Positions 8,183-31,967 of a stretch of DNA of 53,917 nt are shown here, one piece after another; the first letter of the stretch is position 1, and each line of letters starts with the position of its first letter. The DNA is from Candidatus Desantisbacteria bacterium CG1_02_38_46. Lineage in GTDB: Bacteria > Desantisbacteria > UBA1551 > UBA1559. A model generated the notes under the pieces. That model worked only from the letters and a program-made list of their open reading frames with translations, was not told where the DNA came from and ran no database searches. The translations under genes and the position numbers were made by a program. The DNA is taken from positions 1 to 53,917 of the forward strand of contig MNUO01000046.1 in NCBI GenBank assembly GCA_001871015.1, in the 5' to 3' direction.

Positions 8183-8942
8183 TCTTTCTCCTTGTATTGA
8201 GTTTTGTGAGAATTTGTGGTCCCCTTGTTGTAATGACGAGAGTGTGTTCAAAATGAGCAGACAGACTGTGGTCCTCGGTTGCAACTGTCCATCCATTATT
8301 TAATATTTTAACCTTCCAGTCGCCCGAGGCGACCATCGGTTCAATTGCCATAACCATACCTTCCCTTAAACGAGGTCCCCTGTTGGGTGGACCAAAATTT
8401 GGAATCTGTGGTTCCTCATGCAGGTTGCGTCCAATTCCATGTCCAACTAAGTCTCGAACAACAGAAAATCCATCTGATTCAACATGTTTCTGAATTGCAT
8501 GAGAAATATTGGAAAGCCTGTTCCCGACCCGAGCTTCGTCTATTCCGCAATAAAGAGCCTTTTCTGTGACACGCATCAGCAGGTCTGCAACAGAAGATAT
8601 TCCATCTACGCCAACAGTAAAAGCTCCGTCTCCATAATATCCGTTATTCAAAATTCCTATGTCAATACTTATTATATCCCCTGCCTTTAAAATCCTGGAA
8701 GAGGGTATTCCGTGTACAACTTCATCGTTTACCGAGGTGCAAATGCCTTCAGGGAATCCACGATATCCTTTAAAAGCCAGTTTAACTTTTTTCTTCACTG
8801 CTTCTCTCTCTGCACTCTCGTTTAAATAATTAGTGGTAATTCCAGGTTTAATTATTTTTTTTAATTCTTCTTGAATTTCTGCTACTATTTTACAGGCTTT
8901 TTCAATCTCTGCAATTTCCTTATCTGACCTTAGATAAATCAT
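8175..8942 (-). CDS. map: methionine aminopeptidase, type I
   Basis: A 255-aa enzyme that removes the N-terminal Met from new proteins. The metal ligands are visible: SIDIG and YYGDGAF (two Asp), GHGIG (His), IEPM (Glu) and HFEHT (Glu). The gene overlaps adk by 4 nt (ATGA) and infA by 8 nt, so adk-map-infA are translated together. A GTCGCC...GGCGAC palindrome lies in the coding sequence at 8319-8333 without disturbing the frame. Confidence 0.96.
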
Positions 8943-9511
8943 TTCAAGTACTTCCTAATTGTTGAAAAAATTTTTTCCTCAACTCCTTCGCCATCAATTA
9001 CTATCAAAAATCTTTTTTTCCTATAGTATTCCACCAGTGGACTGGATTCCTTTTCATAAACTTTCAATCTGTTTCTTATCGCTATTGGCTTATCATCGTC
9101 CCGCTGGTAAAGAAGAACCTTACGCCGCTTGCTCAATCGTCTAATTATCGTACTGGTTTTGACCTTGAGGTTGAACACTTTAAGGTTAGCACGTTTACCT
9201 AATATCTTCTCTAAAACTTCAGCCTGTTGAATATTTCGGGGAAAACCATCTAATACAAAACCTTTTTTTGCATCTGCTTTTTTCAGGCGTCTGCGAATAA
9301 TTGAGAATATTATTTCGTCAGGAACCAATTTGCCTTTGTTCATATAAGCCCTTACATGTTTAGCAATCTGGCTCGAATCTGCAAGAGATTTGCGTAAGAT
9401 TCCCCCTGTAGAAATATGAGGAACTTTACAAAATTCACTTATTCTTTTCGCCTGTGTTCCTTTCCCCGAGCCCGGTGGTCCTAATAGAATAATTCTTGAT
9501 GATAATCTCAG
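8939..9511 (-). CDS. adk: adenylate kinase with a non-AUG start
   Basis: The 190-aa frame runs ILLGPPGSGKGTQAKR (P-loop), HISTGGILRKS, the NMP-binding part, then LDGFPRN and the short-LID word QRDDDKPIAIRNRLKVY. There is no ATG before residue 57, but the P-loop half is in the same frame without a stop. The best starts are CTG at 9511 or ATT at 9514, with GGGAGG 8-11 nt upstream inside the secY 3' end. The start would overlap the secY stop. An ATG-only call would wrongly give a 134-aa fragment without the P-loop. It converts AMP and ATP to two ADP. Confidence 0.88.
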   Translation of the reverse strand: MRLSSRIILLGPPGSGKGTQAKRISEFCKVPHISTGGILRKSLADSSQIAKHVRAYMNKGKLVPDEIIFSIIRRRLKKADAKKGFVLDGFPRNIQQAEVLEKILGKRANLKVFNLKVKTSTIIRRLSKRRKVLLYQRDDDKPIAIRNRLKVYEKESSPLVEYYRKKRFLIVIDGEGVEEKIFSTIRKYLK

Positions 9512-16971: not shown

Positions 16972-17790
16972 TTATTTCGAACGATGTTGAATAATCCATC
17001 TCCCTGTTGTCTTGTTGCGTCTTGTCTTATAACCTTTTGCAAGTTGTCCCCATGGGCTAACCGGGTGTCTGCCGCCTTTGGATTTTCCTCGACCTCCACC
17101 CATTGGATGGTCGACCTTATTCATTGCAACTCCACGAACAGTTGGTCTAATGCCCAACCATCTTGTGCGTCCGGCTTTCCCAAAAGATATATTCTCATGT
17201 TCTATATTCCCAACTTGACCAAAGGTAGCCATACAATCCAAATGAACTAACCTGATTTCACCAGAAGAAATCTTTAACTGTGCGTAATCACCTTCTTTAG
17301 CCATAAGCTGGGCAAAACTACCTGCAGAACGTGAGAGTTGACCTCCCATTCCCTTTCTTAATTCAATATTATGAACAAAGCTTCCTGCTGGAATATTTCT
17401 AAGTGGCATTGCATTACCAATTCTAACCTCTACTTTCTCTCCACTCATTATAATATTGTTTACTCTTAACCCAATAGGCTGAAGGATATATCTCTTTTCA
17501 CCATCAGCATATTGAACAAGAGCAATGCGCGCAGATCTGTTCGGGTCATATTCCACAGCAATAACCTTACCCGGAATATTTTTCTTATCTCTCTTAAAAT
17601 CTATAATTCGGTAAAGACGCTTATGCCCTCCCCCTCTATGCCTGACACTGATATGTCCCAACCCATCCCTGCCCCCACCTCTTCCCAATGAAACCAACAG
17701 AGATTTCTCGGGTTCTTTATCAGTCAACTCATCAAAAGAGGCAATGCTCATCATTCTTGTTCCAGGTGTTACTGGTTTTAATTTTCTCAC
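16972..17790 (-). CDS. rplB: 50S ribosomal protein L2
   Basis: A 272-aa L2 with [20 protein letters not shown], the peptidyl-transferase-region word [20 protein letters not shown], and [13 protein letters not shown]. It is needed for subunit joining. It lies 3 nt from the L23 stop. Confidence 0.97.
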
Positions 17791-17793
17791 CTT

Positions 17794-18216
17794 TTACTCC
17801 AAAGATTCAATTCTATCTCCAATTCTAAGTGTTGCTATTGCTTTTTTCCAATCAGGACGTTTTCCAACTTCATAACGAACCCTTCTCTTTTTACCATGCA
17901 TAATTAAAGTATTAATCTTCATTGCTTTTACTTTGTATAATGACTCAACAGCCTTCATAATTTCAATTTTGTTCGCATTTCTATCAACTTCAAAAGTGTA
18001 CTTGTTTTCTTTCTGTTTTAAACCTCTAGTTTTTTCTGTGTTCAATATTCCTTTTATAATATTAGCCTTTGCTGCCAAAATTGGGGTTACTTTCTCCCTG
18101 GAGAGCTCAGGTTCTGGTTTTTGTGGTTTTATTTCTTCTACTTCTTTTTTCTTCCTAAAATATATAATCCCAATGATAGCAATTATAGAAACCAAAATAA
18201 CCAATGCGAGAATCAT
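17794..18216 (-). CDS. rplW: 50S ribosomal protein L23 with an N-terminal transmembrane anchor
   Basis: Residues about 50-140 are a normal L23 (EVDRNANKIEIMKAVESLYK, RYEVGKRPDWKKAIATLR). The first 20 residues are an unbroken hydrophobic segment (Leu, Ile, Val, Ala, Gly) followed by FRKKK and a Glu/Lys/Pro-rich linker (about 21-48), a layout typical of a single-pass anchor with the rest in the cytoplasm. ATG 18216 has GGAG 8 nt upstream and lies 24 nt after rplD. No ATG occurs between it and the L23 core; a TTG near codon 47 has only a distant purine-rich site. L23 is the ribosomal dock for trigger factor, SRP and SecYEG at the tunnel exit, so such an anchor would hold translating ribosomes at the membrane. 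Family assignment is firm; tethering is inference. Confidence 0.9.
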   Translation of the reverse strand: MILALVILVSIIAIIGIIYFRKKKEVEEIKPQKPEPELSREKVTPILAAKANIIKGILNTEKTRGLKQKENKYTFEVDRNANKIEIMKAVESLYKVKAMKINTLIMHGKKRRVRYEVGKRPDWKKAIATLRIGDRIESLE

Positions 18217-18240
18217 GTTACTTCTCCAGCAAGAAATTCT

Positions 18241-18867
18241 TTATTTGATTTTTTCCTGAATTTTCATAATTGCATCTTTTGTAGTAATTATCTTGTCACA
18301 ATTTAATAGTACATATGCATTAATCTGCGAATAAGAATACACTTTTAAATTTTTGATATTCCGGGCGGCTCTTTTCAAGATTCCATTATTTTCATCAATC
18401 AATAAAAGCGGTTTTTTTACTTTGAAATTTCCTAAAATTTTAACCAGCTCTTTAGTTTTGGGCTGCGTTAGTTTAAGTTCATCTAAAACAATAAATTCAC
18501 CCTTCTCCACTTTGGATGAAAGAGCAGCCATTGTCGCCAATTTCTTTACTTTTTTTGGAATAGAATATTCATAGCTGCGTGGTTTTGGGCCAAAGGTAAT
18601 TCCACCTCCAATCCACAGCGGGGAACGGATACTTCCTACCCTTGCCCTGCCTGTTCCTTTCTGGCGCCAGGGCTTTCTTCCACCTCCCCGTACTTCAGAG
18701 CGGCCCCTGGTAGATGCCGTACCTCTTCTTTGAGATGAAAGATAATTAATTACTGCACAGTGCAGGACGCTGGGCTTAACTTTAACATCAAAAACTTCAT
18801 TTAAAAGTGCGATTTTTCCAGTTTTATTTCCTTCTATATTATATGTATCTAATTCTATGGTTTTCAT
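18241..18867 (-). CDS. rplD: 50S ribosomal protein L4
   Basis: A 208-aa L4 with the tunnel-loop region RRGTASTRGRSEVRGGGRKP and WRQKGTGRARVGSIRSPLW. L4 lines the exit tunnel constriction, and in some bacteria it represses the S10 operon. Confidence 0.97.
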   Translation of the reverse strand: MKTIELDTYNIEGNKTGKIALLNEVFDVKVKPSVLHCAVINYLSSQRRGTASTRGRSEVRGGGRKPWRQKGTGRARVGSIRSPLWIGGGITFGPKPRSYEYSIPKKVKKLATMAALSSKVEKGEFIVLDELKLTQPKTKELVKILGNFKVKKPLLLIDENNGILKRAARNIKNLKVYSYSQINAYVLLNCDKIITTKDAIMKIQEKIK

Positions 18868-18881
18868 AAGTTTCCAAATAT

Positions 18882-18904
18882 CAGGGCTAAAGCCCTGAGT
18901 TACA
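18882..18904 (-). repeat. TGTAACT-tagged palindrome at the rplC stop codon
   Basis: On the minus strand TGTAACT is followed by CAGGGCTTTAGCCCTG. The TAA inside the tag is the rplC stop codon. The stem carries compensating changes (GGGC/GCCC) relative to the commoner GGAC/GTCC copies. Confidence 0.8.
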
Positions 18905-19463
18905 TTTTAATAGAGGTTCTTATTAAAAGGTATCCACCTTTAACACCCGGAATAGCACCTTTTACTAATAATATTTCATGCTCACTGTCAACTTTAATGA
19001 TTTTCAGATTTTGAACTGTCACTCGCCTGAATCCCATGTGGCCAGGCATAGTTTTTCCCTTGAAAACTCTACCTGGAGAAGTACCCTGACCAACAGAGCC
19101 TATTCTGCGATGAGACATCGAACCATGAGATGCACCTCCACCTGCCCAACCCCAACGCTTCATACCTCCCGCAAAACCCTTCCCTTTAGAAATCCCTGTA
19201 ATATCTACGTATTCACCCTCCTGAAAAATACTTACTTTAACTTCATCGCCTAATTTATATGGAAATTCGCCACGAATTTCCCTGATAAATCTCAAGGGTT
19301 TTGCAAAGCCTAATTGAATTGCATCATATCCATCTGTTTTTTTGGTCTTATGCTGGAGCACCACGCATGGTCCTGATTCAATAACGGTAACTGGAATTGC
19401 TCTACCATCCTTATCAAATATTTGTGTCATTCCCAATTTTCTACCTAAGATTCCTTCTCTCAT
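18900..19463 (-). CDS. rplC: 50S ribosomal protein L3
   Basis: A 187-aa L3, on the short side. It has the start LGRKLGMTQIFDKDG and the loop region GWAGGGASHGSMSHRRIGSV, whose tip approaches the peptidyl-transferase centre. The stop codon TAA lies within a repeat element, and the last residues may have been altered by its insertion. Confidence 0.96.
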   Translation of the reverse strand: MREGILGRKLGMTQIFDKDGRAIPVTVIESGPCVVLQHKTKKTDGYDAIQLGFAKPLRFIREIRGEFPYKLGDEVKVSIFQEGEYVDITGISKGKGFAGGMKRWGWAGGGASHGSMSHRRIGSVGQGTSPGRVFKGKTMPGHMGFRRVTVQNLKIIKVDSEHEILLVKGAIPGVKGGYLLIRTSIKM

Positions 19464-24362: not shown

Positions 24363-27300
24363 TTACTCCCCGATTTTTTCTATCTTTAGATTTTGATATT
24401 TGGATAAACCTGTACCAGCAGGAACTAACCTGCCAATAATTACGTTTTCCTTCAAACCCAACAGTTCATCACTTCTGCCTCTAATAGCAGCATCAGTAAG
24501 TATGTGAATAGTTTCCTGAAATGAGGCGGCAGCAATAAAACTATCGCTCTTTAACGCCCCTTTTGTAATGCCCTGCAATATAGGTTTTCCTTTAGCAGGT
24601 TTTCCACCACTTACCAGGATGCGATTATTCTCCTTTTCAAACCTGAATTTATCCACCTGTTCCCCGGAAAGAAAATTGGTATCTCCTGAATCTTCAATTT
24701 CAATCCGACGCAACATTTGTCTGACTATTATTTCAATGTGCTTATCGTTAATATCCACACCCTGCAGACGATAAACCGATTGAATTTCATTTACGAGGTA
24801 TTCCTGGAGAGCTCTTTCACCTTTGACTGCTAGAATATCGTGAGGATTAATTGGGCCACTGGTCAAGGGTTCTCCTACATTGACTTTATCTCCTTCTCGA
24901 ACTCTTAAATATTTACCTTCTGGAACAAGATATTCTCTTGTTCCTCTGTCTCCCTTTACCACAATTTTCCTCATACCTCGGGAAGAAGGAGCAAAATCAA
25001 CTATTCCATCCACTTCGCTTATCATGGCACTATCTCGAACATGTCTTGCTTCAAATAATTCTTCAACTCTAGGCAATCCTCCTGTTATATCCCTGGTCTT
25101 AACAATTTGATGCGGAATTTTTACTAAGGCATCTCCTGAAGACACCTTCTTGCCATCTGTGGTCACTAAATGTGCACCGGTGGGAATTGGATATGTAATT
25201 GTTTTCTCTTTATTTACAACCTCTATCCTTGGGTGGTATCTGCCTTCCTTATGCTCAATTATCTCCCGTTCCAGTAATCCTGTTGTTTTATCGAGCTCCT
25301 CCCGCACAGTCTCACCTTTTATAATATCTTTGAATACAACTTCTCCAGATATTTCAGTGAGTATTGGTTCATTGTATGGATCAAACTCTGCCAGAGGTTT
25401 GTTTGCAGGCACTATTTCACCAGGGCTTACTTTTATTTCGGCTCCGGCTTGAACAGAAAGAGGATATTCCTCACCCATTATAAAAACAGTACCCTGCTCC
25501 TCATCAATTTTTACTATTCCAGTAACTTCAGTGGGAACAGACTTTCCATCCTCTTTTGCAAGTTGCTCGCCTGTTGTGACCCACAATCCATCAAAAACGG
25601 TAATTTTTGCCCTGGGGGAAAGTATATATTTACCAAGAATTCTTCTTACTATTATCTCTCCATGTCTATTTGCGACAAGTGCCCCATCATTTTCTCTTGT
25701 AATCAAATTCCCGGGAATATCCATCACTTCAACTGGGAATTTAACTCTTATATCCTTTTCCTCTACCTGGGTATAGGCCGTTCCACCTATATGGAAGGTG
25801 CGCAGTGTAAGCTGTGTTCCTGGCTCACCTATGCTCTCAGCAGCTATTACTCCAACTGCCTCACCAAGTTCCACAATTTTACCTGTTGCAAGGTCTATGC
25901 CATAACATTTCCTGCATACTCCCCTCTTTGCTTCACAGGTAAGCACAGTACGTATTCGAACTTTTTCTATTCCTGTTTTCTCAATCTTTTGCGCATCTTC
26001 CTGGGTCACTTCTTGATTATCCTTTACAACTACCTCCCCTGTTAGCGGGTCTATTACATCTCCAAGCACAACTCTTCCTAAAATTCTGTCACCCAATGAT
26101 TCAATGGTCTCGCCACCTTCTTTCAAAGCTGAGACATTTATACCATTAACTGTTCCACAGTCCTCTTCACTAACAATTTCTTCTTGAGCCACATCCACTA
26201 ATCTGCGCGTTAAGTATCCAGCATCTGCTGTTTTTAATGCGGTATCAGTTAATCCCTTTCTTCCTCCATGAGTGGAAATGAAGTATTCCAACACATTCAG
26301 TCCCTCACGAAAATTAGTGGTAATGGGCAACTCAATAATTTCACCTGATGGTTTGGTCATCAAACCACGCATTGCCGCAAGTTGCCTTATTTGCCGCTCT
26401 CTACCACGTGCCCCAGAATCAAAAATAAGATAGAGAGGATTAAAACCTCCCTGGTCTTGCTTTATATTTTCAAGCATGGCATCAGTAAGTTTGTTGGTTG
26501 CTCTTGTCCATATGTCGATAACACGATTATATCTCTCGCCCTCAGTTATTAATCCACGGTGATATTGTCCTCTTATTTTCCTCTCTTCTTCCTTGCTTTC
26601 CCTTATGATTTCTTCTTTTTGTGATGGAATTTTTATATCTGACATTCCTATTGAGATACCAGACTTAGTGGCAAACTCAAAACCTAATTCTTTTATTTCA
26701 TCCAAGAGTTCAGCAGTCCTGGTGTTCCCGTACATCTTACAACATCTATAAACAAGGTCGCTCATTATTTTCTTATTTAATGTTTTATTGATAAACCTCA
26801 ATTTTTCTGGAAGAACGTCATTGAATATCGCTCTTCCAACCGTGGTACCGATTATTCTCTTCTCTTGGCGAGCAGTAGAAAATTGTAATCTTATTTTGGC
26901 ATGCAGCCCTACAAGACCCAATTGATATACATGGATTACCTCATTTATATCCGCGAAATATTTACCTTCTCCGCGCTCTTTTTCGCCTTCCTTTGTTAAA
27001 TAATGACAACCTAAAACTATATCCTGACTGGGAGAAGAAATTGGCCTGCCATTAGATGGCGAGAGAAGATTGTTCGTAGACATCATAAGCAGCCGTGCTT
27101 CAAGTTGTGTCTCTAAAGAAAGTGGAATATGCACCGCCATCTGATCACCATCAAAATCAGCATTAAACCCTGCGCAGGCTAAAGGGTGAATCTGTATAGC
27201 CTTACTCTCAATCAAAACAGGTTCAAATGCCTGAATTCCCAGACGATGAAGAGTTGGAGCTCTATTTAATAATACGGGGTGGCCCTTAATTACTTCCTCA

Positions 27301-30300
27301 AGAATGTTCCATACTTCTTCGCTCTCTTCTTCTACCATTTTCTTTGCACTTTTGATATTGGGTGATATTTCCTGCTTGGCTATTTTCTCAAGAACAAAGG
27401 GTCTAAAAAGCTCCAGGGCCATTTTCTTGGGGAGTCCGCATTGATGAAATTTTAATTGAGGTCCAACAACAATAACTGATCTCCCAGAATAATCTACACG
27501 CTTACCTAATAGATTCTGTCTGAACCTTCCTTGTTTTCCACCTAATAAATCCGAAAGCGAACGCAAAACCCGATTGCCCATTATAACCGGATAACCACGG
27601 CGCCCATTCTGGAACAGAGAATCAACTGCTTCCTGAAGCATTCTCTTTTCATTCTGAATAATAATTTCAGGAGCTTGATGCTCATACACCAACTTGTGCA
27701 ATCGAGCATTTCTATTAATAACTCTCCGATACAGATCATTTATATCGGATGTGGCAAACCGTCCACTTTCTAACTGTACCATTGGCCGTAATTCCGGTGG
27801 AATAACTGGAATAACACTCAACATCATCCATTCTGGTTTGTTTCCTGATTTCAAGAAAGTCTGAACCAGTTCAATCTTTTTAGTTAACTTTTTATTTTTT
27901 TGAGACAAAGGCTTTTTTTTCAGTTCTGCCTGCAGATCCCTCTCTACTGCCTTTAAATCCAATTCCGCTAACAATTCCTTAATCGCCTCTGCCCCCATTC
28001 TGGCTTTAAACGAATCTCCATATTTCTCTTTATATTCCCGATATTCCTCTTCTGAAATTATGTCCTTTTTGTTGCACTGCACCTTCCCAGGGTCCATTAC
28101 AATATATCTTTCAAAGTAAAGCACTCTCTCTAAATCGTGACTGGTTATATCAAGGAGTACTGCTACCGGAGATGGAATTTCCTTAACATACCATATGTGA
28201 CTCACCGGGCTAGTAAGTTCTATATGTCCCATCCTGCTCCTTCGCACACTTGATTCAGTAACTTCAACACCACACCTATCACAGGTAATACCTTTATAAC
28301 GAAGACCTTCATATTTCTCACAAAAACACTTCCAGTCCTGAGTCGGTCCAAATATTTTCTCGCAGAATAGACCTTCGCGCTCAGGCCTGAAAGTTCTATA
28401 ATTTATTGTCTCGGGCTTTTTTACTTCTCCATGTGACCAACTACGAATTATCTCTGGGGAAGCCAGTCCTATTCTTATGGATACAAAATCCTCTAATGAA
28501 GAATTTGATTCTTGAGATCCAGGCAAGCCTTCAGTTTTGGGTAGTGCTTCAATATTTAGCAATCTGCCTTTTTTATCAAGAAAAGAAATATTTAATCCTA
28601 AACCCTGGAGTTCCCTCACAAGCACATTAAAAGATTCAGGAACACCCATCTTGGGTGGCGTTTTGCCCTTGATAATAGCCTCGTACAATTTTGCCCTTCC
28701 TATTGTATCATCACTCTTTACTGTAAGCATCTCCTGAAGGGTATAAGCTGCGCCGTAAGCCTCTAATGCCCATACCTCCATTTCCCCAAATCGCTGCCCT
28801 CCGAATTGAGCCTTACCACCGAGGGGTTGCTGAGTCACGAGGGAATAAGGGCCTATGGAACGGGCATGCATTTTGTCATCTACTAAATGTGACAACTTCA
28901 TCATATAAATATATCCAATTGTAACATCCTGATCAAATGGCAAGCCTGTACGCCCATCATAAATTTTCATTTTGCCCGATTCGGGAAGAGCTGCTTTACG
29001 CAACATTCCCCTTATTTCTTCTTCAGAAGCACCATCAAATACAGGGCTAATGAACTTTAAGCCCAGAGCCTTCGCAGCCAATCCTAAATGTACTTCTAAT
29101 ATCTGGCCTATGTTCATTCTGGAAGGAACACCGAGGGGATTGAGTACTATTTCTACAGGGGTACCATCTTTCAAATAGGGCATGGATTCCTCGGGTAATA
29201 TTTTTGATACAACTCCTTTATTACCATGCCGACCAGCCATTTTATCTCCTTCAGATACCTTCCTTTTTTGAGAAATGTACACCTTTATCAATCTGCTTAC
29301 ACCCAATGGCAATTCGTCACCACCCGCTCGCGAAAATACCCTGCTTTCAATAACTTTACCATCATAACCCGGTGGAACCCGTAAAGATGTATCCCGAACT
29401 TCCTTTGCTCTCTCACCAAAAATAGCCCTTAAAAGTCTCTCCTCAGCTGAAAGTTTGGTTTCTTCACGAGGTGTAAGCTTTCCAACCAATATATCCCTTG
29501 GTTTAACATCAGCGCCAATTCTCACAATTCCGTTTTCATCCAGATCCTTCAAACTTTCTTCACTCACATTTGGAATATCCCGCGTGATTTCCTCCTCACC
29601 CAATTTTGTATCCCTTACTTCAACCTTAAACTCCTCAATGTGGATAGAGGTGAAAGTATCCTCCCTTACCAATTTCTCACTTATGAGAATAGCATCTTCA
29701 AAGTTATATCCTTCCCAGGGTAAATAAGCAACCAGCACATTTCTTCCTAATGAAAGTTCGCCATCTTTTATGCAGGAACCATCGCTAATTATCTGCCCGT
29801 TTCTAACCTTTTCACCTTTTTTCACAATTGGCCTCTGACTTATGCAGGTACTTTGATTAGAACGGATATACTTATCTAACCAATATATTTCTTTTTCTTT
29901 ATTTCCTTTAGCAGTTTTTTCATACTCAAGAATTATCCTGCGGGCATCAACCTCTTTTACAACCCCATCTTTCCTGGCAATTTTTACTCTTCCGGAGTCC
30001 CTTGCTATAACAGATTCCAATCCGGTCTGTACCAAAGGAGGTTCTGGAAAAATTAGAGGGACGGTCTGCCTCTGCATATTAGAACCCATTAAAGCCCTGT
30101 TTGCATCATCATGTTCTATAAAGGGAATTAGACTTGCAGTAACGCTAATCAATTGTTTTGGGGACACATCCATATAATTAACTTCCTCACTTTTAGCCAT
30201 TATGAAATTGTCCTCAAACCTGCAAGGAACTTCCTTATTTATAAATCTATTATTCTTATCAACTGGAGCATTTGCCTGCGCAATTATAAATTGGTCTTCA

Positions 30301-31967
30301 ACATCAGCAGTTAAGTATTCTATTTCATCAGTAACTTTACCGCTTTCTACTTTTCGGTATGGAGTTTCCAGGAGTCCAAGGTAATTGGTCCGCGCATAGG
30401 TACTTAAAGAAACTATCAATCCAATATTAGGACCTTCTGGTGTTTCTATAGGGCAAATTCGTCCATAATGGCTGAAATGCACATCGCGAACTTCAAATCC
30501 GGCCCTTTCTCTTGTGAGCCCTCCGGGTCCTAAAGCGCTAAGCCGGCGTTTATGCGTAAGTTCTGCAAGCGGATTAGTCTGGTCTAAATACTGGGAAAGT
30601 TGGCTGGTTCCAAAAAATTCATTTATACCTTCAGCCACCGGCCTGATAACAAGAAGAGAACGAGGCATTGCTTTGTCAAGGTCTACTGTAGCCATTCGCT
30701 CTCTGGTCATTCGGACAACCTGCAGCATTATCTTTCTGAATTGATTCTCCAATAGTTCGCCAACCGAAACAATCCTTCTGTTTCCTAAATGGTCTATATC
30801 ATCACCTTGCCCCCTGGTCCTCTTTAATTCTATTAGTCCTTTAATTACTTCTATGATATCTTCCTTAGATAATACCTTCTCGTTTAAGGGTACATTTAAT
30901 TTTAGCCTTTTGTTCAGCCGGTACCTGCCTATTTCACCAAGACTATATCTCTTAGGAGACATGAAGATATTTTCCAGAAGGCTCTTTCCGCTTTCGGGCG
31001 TAGCTGGTTCATTTGGACGAAAACGACGATAAATCTCCACGCACGCTTCTTCTTCATTGCGTGCAAACTCGCGCGATAAAGTATTGGGAAAAATTATGTC
31101 GGTTTCCTCGCTACCCAAAACCTTTATTTTATCAAGATTTAATCTCCTTATTATTTTAATTAAACCTCTGTCAATTGGAGTGGAAATTTTTGCTACGGCT
31201 ATCCCATCCTTATCGCTCAGTGTCTCGCCTAATCTCCTCCCGATTAATTCATCAAGTTTATGGCCCCTTATGTGAATCTCCTTCAAATTGCCAAACATCC
31301 TCAACATTTTTTCTTCACTATATCCTAATGCTTTCAAAAAAATTGTAACAGGTATTTTTCGTTTTCTATCAAGTGAAACATTGATAATATTGCTGGATTC
31401 CAGAGTAAATTCCATCCATCCTCCCCAGTATGGAATAATCCTGGCTGAATATTGCCGTTCTCCCCCCGAGCGAACCTCCACTTGATAGAAAACTCCGGGA
31501 GCACGATGAAGTTGATTTACAACTGTTCTCTCAACGCCATTAATTATGAAAGTACCCTGTTCAGTCATACAGGGAATGTCACCTAAAAAAACTTCCCCTT
31601 GTTCCTTCACTTCGCCTGTACGTTTATTCACAAGTCTCAACTTTATTTTTACAGACGAACTGTAACTTACTCCTCTCTCAATGCACTCCCAGGGACCATG
31701 CCTGGGTTCAAAAATTTTATAATCCACAAACTCAAGAGCGACTCTTTCATTGAGGTCAGTTATCGAAAAGGATTCTAAAAAAAGTGCCTGCAATCCTATA
31801 TTCTTCCTCTTGTCAGACGACACATCCATCTGGATGAATTGCTCATATGATTTCTTCTGGATTTCTACCAGGTCCGGAATTTCCATTATCTCTGGAATTT
31901 TACCAAAATTAATCTTTCTGACCGATTTTTTCTCTTTATCTTTTTTTTGTTTCATTGTTCCACTCAC
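24363..31967 (-). CDS. rpoBC: fused RNA polymerase beta-beta' subunit
   Basis: A single 2,534-aa frame. The beta half (about 1-1150) has the Rif-region words [20 protein letters not shown] and [32 protein letters not shown], and ends in [17 protein letters not shown] linker of about 30 residues without Met leads into beta' (from about 1158): [19 protein letters not shown], the zinc word [18 protein letters not shown], the catalytic [12 protein letters not shown], the second zinc site [11 protein letters not shown] and [19 protein letters not shown]. The junction is near 28,480-28,560 and no stop occurs around it. The start may be GTG 31967, overlapping the rplL stop, or ATG 31955. Such fusions are known in Helicobacter relatives and Wolbachia. 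Confidence 0.96.

Follow-up and report, generated by a model that had tools for sequence, protein, structure and literature searches.

A ribosomal protein uL23 with a predicted N-terminal membrane anchor in Candidatus Desantisbacteria bacterium CG1_02_38_46

Ribosomal protein uL23 is located at the exit of the ribosomal tunnel, where it is contacted by SRP, trigger factor, SecA, and SecY (PMC6692507), in agreement with the contacts that the initial annotation of this locus had invoked. In the stretch of DNA analyzed here (53,917 nucleotides; hereafter, the window), the gene for this protein, rplW, is read as an open reading frame (ORF) that begins with a hydrophobic segment. This raises the question of whether the bacterium produces a uL23 with its own transmembrane anchor and whether such a protein would hold ribosomes at the membrane.

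The rplW reading frame and its N-terminal extension

The gene and its surroundings are composed of the following features.

18241..18867, minus strand: rplD (uL4), 24 nt upstream of rplW
18223..18227, minus strand: Shine-Dalgarno (SD) sequence GGAGA, 6 nt before the first codon, ATG1
17794..18216, minus strand: rplW (uL23) ORF with the putative N-terminal membrane-anchor extension, 140 aa, ATG start
18157..18213, minus strand: predicted transmembrane helix ILALVILVSIIAIIGIIYF, codons 2–20
18145..18156, minus strand: RKKK, codons 21–24, putative basic stop-transfer sequence on the core side
18067..18144, minus strand: charged K/E/P-rich linker, codons 25–50
17797..18066, minus strand: ordinary uL23 core, codons 51–140
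16972..17790, minus strand: rplB (uL2), 3 nt downstream of rplW

The core was assigned to uL23 by its domain, fold, and operon position. Pfam PF00276 matched residues 53–137 with an E-value of 2.7e-27 (95.4 bits against a cut-off of 30.8), NCBIfam rplW NF004363 scored 96.4 bits against a cut-off of 81, and the top Foldseek matches were uL23 chains from solved ribosomes with target-normalised TM-scores of about 0.8–0.9. The gene lies between rplD and rplB, with the order of the S10 operon kept, and was the only rplW copy found in the window genome. In its core fold, conserved residues, operon position, and single copy, it thus resembles other bacterial rplW genes. Residue E61 in the TEK motif is presumably the equivalent of E. 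coli Glu18, the trigger-factor docking residue.

The N-terminal region has the composition that the initial annotation described, namely a hydrophobic stretch followed by a basic stop and a charged linker ahead of a normal core. Residues 2–20 have a mean Kyte-Doolittle value of 3.14, and an AlphaFold model based on 28 sequences contained a helix at residues 2–27 (pLDDT of about 95), a low-confidence linker (about 51–55 over residues 31–50), and an intact core mostly above 90. The linker is probably flexible, as judged from its low-confidence prediction. A hydrophobic helix of about 19–20 residues followed by positive residues on the predicted cytoplasmic side is compatible with a single-pass anchor of N-out/C-in topology, which would place the uL23 core in the cytoplasm, as expected from the positive-inside rule. 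A soluble N-terminus only a few residues before the core is a usual, though not strictly defining, trait of uL23; if ATG1 is used, this protein instead carries an extension of 46–50 residues.

The extension is more than a chance open frame. Its codon log-likelihood was 13.9, the top value of the six frames, and the remaining sense frames contained five and two stops. Its synonymous codon use fitted that of the genome (z 0.4) and exceeded a base-composition null, though modestly (z 2.1). Among 20,000 dinucleotide shuffles, 301 retained an open in-frame extension that spanned 40 or more codons and included a start codon, but a transmembrane-like segment was present in none of them. Based on the coding statistics and the shuffles, a non-coding leader was rejected. 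The good ribosome-binding site that had been noted directly before the ORF was confirmed, with the GGAGA sequence at a spacing typical of most window genes (3–7 nt). Inside the extension, two further features bear on where translation begins.

18093..18100, minus strand: CAGGGAGA, strong SD-like sequence 14 nt before TTG47, outside the normal spacing
18076..18078, minus strand: TTG codon 47 (TTG47), alternative or relic start, aligned with the start codon of relatives

The anti-SD pairing of CAGGGAGA (−8.0 kcal/mol) is stronger than that of the SD of ATG1. A start at TTG47 would leave a gap of 162 nt after rplD, compared with −35 to 78 nt for the remaining gaps of the operon. Elsewhere in the window, adk (approximately 8939–9500, minus strand) has no ATG, GTG, or TTG start near its conserved N-terminus; a GGGAGG sequence 8 nt before an ATT codon suggests that it starts with AUU.

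Occurrence of the extension among relatives

Conservation in relatives, which had been set beforehand as the test of the proposed anchor, failed: the phylum-mate and every other uL23 examined lacked the segment. The sole phylum-mate compared, G001, belongs to the same order but another family, and its assembly is 93% complete. Its uL23 is about 60–61% identical in the core, which is ordinary for the S10 operon, and begins, immediately ahead of the core, with MDPRS. At about 120 further uL23 loci, the reading frames typically start 3–5 codons upstream of the core, and the region ahead of the core contains no hydrophobic segment; the top 19-residue Kyte-Doolittle window upstream of the core in these frames was 0.84 and was located upstream of the ordinary start. 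Long open frames upstream of uL23 were seen in other genomes, and nearly all were judged to be read-through, mostly in GC-rich sequence, lying upstream of an ordinary start. When the full protein was compared with named genome contigs (80 kept) and 317 genomes, 310 of which had a uL23, only the window's own match started before query residue 29 among the matches listed, which were about half of those in the survey of the 317 genomes.

No second copy of the extension was detected in the window genome at the DNA or protein level or in G001, and no relative of it was detected among viral contigs. A similarity to the Pfam family OAD_gamma was not significant (E 0.087). The literature search retrieved no anchored bacterial ribosomal protein, and we know of no uL23 with an N-terminal transmembrane helix. 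On sequence comparison, the extension is thus a singleton found in one genome only, and in this respect the window uL23 differs from all others in the comparison. Because TTG47 coincides exactly with the position of the ancestral start, the simplest history would be the addition of an in-frame segment upstream, with the old start downgraded or kept as a second start.

Targeting machinery and a possible ribosome tether

Profile searches with the Ffh M domain (PF02978) and the SRP54/FtsY GTPase domain (PF00448) detected neither Ffh nor FtsY in the window genome or in G001, whereas 14 of 14 control genomes were positive. As judged from these protein components, the apparent absence of SRP and its receptor, which would be expected for a ribosome–membrane tether that replaces SRP, holds for both genomes. 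The window assembly is 88% complete, and it is unlikely that two genes are missing from both incomplete assemblies by chance. The one SRP54 match over the cut-off in the window genome, on contig C122, was a MinD/CooC-like P-loop fragment. The two phylum genomes without detectable Ffh and FtsY are 1.7–2.5 Mb in size. The Ffh M domain was missing in 22 of the 145 genomes surveyed, some of them larger (2–4 Mb), and the Ffh profile gave no match in G059, a complete genome on a single 786-kb contig.

YidC is encoded on contig C66 of the window genome (1489–2112, minus strand; N-terminus cut by the contig end). The protein stops soon after the last helix and has no basic tail for ribosome binding, so that its sequence gives no sign of the mode of ribosome holding known for YidC/Oxa1. 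The apparent absence of SRP and FtsY, together with the tail-less YidC, would give a ribosome tether a plausible job. Trigger factor is present, although its gene is cut by a contig end, and starts intact with the docking motif GFRPGKTP; compensation for its loss was therefore rejected as a role of the anchor.

We consider it about an even chance that the long frame is a real, lineage-specific gene fusion producing a uL23 anchored in N-out/C-in orientation, through which some or all of the large subunits would be held at the membrane. Such a fusion would have placed about 46 codons, specifying a single-pass anchor and a flexible linker, ahead of rplW within the S10 operon and moved the start of translation to ATG1. 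The long uL23 would be inserted N-out/C-in via YidC or SecYEG, and its core would be built into the large subunit, so that some of the ribosomes, if not all, would be tethered and their tunnel exit would face the membrane. A linker of about 26–30 residues may let the subunit sit at the translocon. The prediction of helix, linker, and core as separate modules by AlphaFold is consistent with a fusion, whereas the cost of anchoring every ribosome argues against it. From the sequence and the models, we infer the expression of the long form, its membrane insertion, its incorporation into ribosomes, and its purpose.

The tether could replace part of SRP targeting in a lineage in which Ffh and FtsY were not detected and YidC has no basic tail, much as mitochondria tether ribosomes. 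However, the link of the anchor to SRP loss is only suggestive, because G001 and other genomes without the Ffh M domain manage without an anchor. No anchor was present in G001 or in any other genome without the M domain whose uL23 was read, and the tether and SRP loss did not co-occur across relatives; since neither SRP nor the anchor was found in G001, SRP can evidently be lost without the anchor. The proposal that the anchor tethers ribosomes at the membrane is partly supported: the anatomy, the apparent absence of SRP and FtsY, and the tail-less YidC speak in favor, whereas the lack of conservation and the position of TTG47 at the start of relatives speak against; the constitutive membrane-bound pool would follow only by extrapolation. 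Its strongest version, an SRP-less bacterium in which uL23 has become an integral membrane anchor, with ribosomes constitutively docked and cotranslational insertion proceeding without SRP as a bacterial parallel of mitochondrial translation, is doubtful though conceivable.

Mitochondria, which lack SRP, would be the closest functional parallel by analogy, as the window uL23 would likewise keep the tunnel exit of the ribosome at the membrane in the apparent absence of SRP. Mitoribosomes are held by separate membrane or peripheral proteins, namely mL45, Mba1, Chlamydomonas mL119, and the Oxa1 C-tail (PMC8998825), whereas the window helix is built into a universal ribosomal protein. A YidC with a ribosome-binding C-tail occurs in Rhodopirellula baltica and Oceanicaulis alexandrii; such a YidC tethers ribosomes at the insertase and is able to take over part of the role of the SRP pathway (Seitl et al. 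2014, as cited in PMC4508563); the YidC tail in the window genome is short, and the tether would sit on the ribosome rather than on the insertase. In Parcubacteria, ffh and the SRP RNA gene were also not detected (PMC4508563); unlike the window genome, these are reduced CPR genomes with an altered YidC, and no uL23 anchor is described for them. The uL23 of Candidatus Marinimicrobia (PDB 7z20) is likewise a natural, lineage-specific elaboration in uncultured bacteria, but it has an extended intratunnel loop and no membrane anchor.

Alternative explanations and their weight

Internal initiation, a sequence artefact, and cleavage of the long form together carry somewhat less than even weight. If translation started mainly at TTG47 (or ATT46), an ordinary soluble uL23 would be made, the long isoform would be minor, and most or all ribosomes would be normal, or two pools would exist. 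The position of TTG47, four codons ahead of the core and at the start site of nearly all relatives, the strong pairing of CAGGGAGA, and the non-standard start apparently used by adk all point in this direction. The SD spacing of 14 nt (11 nt for ATT46) is nevertheless far from the spacing in most window genes, and the upstream frame contains no stop, so that any ribosome that initiates at ATG1 necessarily produces the long form. We regard this explanation as unlikely. The long form might also be made, inserted or recognised, and then cleaved to an ordinary uL23, perhaps coupling uL23 supply to the state of the membrane. Firmicutes bL27, which is N-terminally processed, offers a parallel, and the long linker is probably flexible and would probably be accessible to a protease; however, no signal-peptidase-like Ala-X-Ala motif was present in residues 12–50, and no protease partner was identified, leaving such processing very improbable.

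The window genome is a single draft assembly in 133 contigs, and the extension was read from the assembled sequence. A separate small membrane ORF could therefore end before rplW, its stop being masked by a base error or a chimeric join. The loss of one base in the linker would put a TAA (inside GTAACC) in frame, and the fusion was found in no relative. On the other hand, conserved genes of the contig aligned with those of G001 over their full length without a frameshift, so that indel errors look rare on this contig; moreover, no further copy of the extension was found elsewhere in the genome, and a chimera would require an in-frame join that preserves the operon order. An artefact is accordingly judged improbable.

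Provided that the cell produces the long form, this uL23 would, to our knowledge, be the first ribosomal protein of a bacterium shown to carry a transmembrane anchor of its own. It would also open ribosome tethering, as a way to bypass SRP, to direct testing, because the anchor is a short N-terminal module that could be grafted onto the uL23 of laboratory strains. Should the long form be minor, it would still be noteworthy that Ffh and FtsY are apparently absent from a phylum whose genomes measure 1.7–2.5 Mb.

Several other unusual gene structures were observed in this genome. The rpoB and rpoC genes are fused into one ORF of 2534 aa (window 24363–31967, minus strand), and the same fusion is present in G001 (2540 aa); rpoB-rpoC fusions are known in Helicobacter and Wolbachia. 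About 20 residues are missing from uL3 (window 18900–19463, minus strand) compared with G001 and the other relatives displayed in the alignment. In the ispE gene on contig C18 (11–1081), tandem 8-residue repeats of the RINSATTS type have been inserted in frame.
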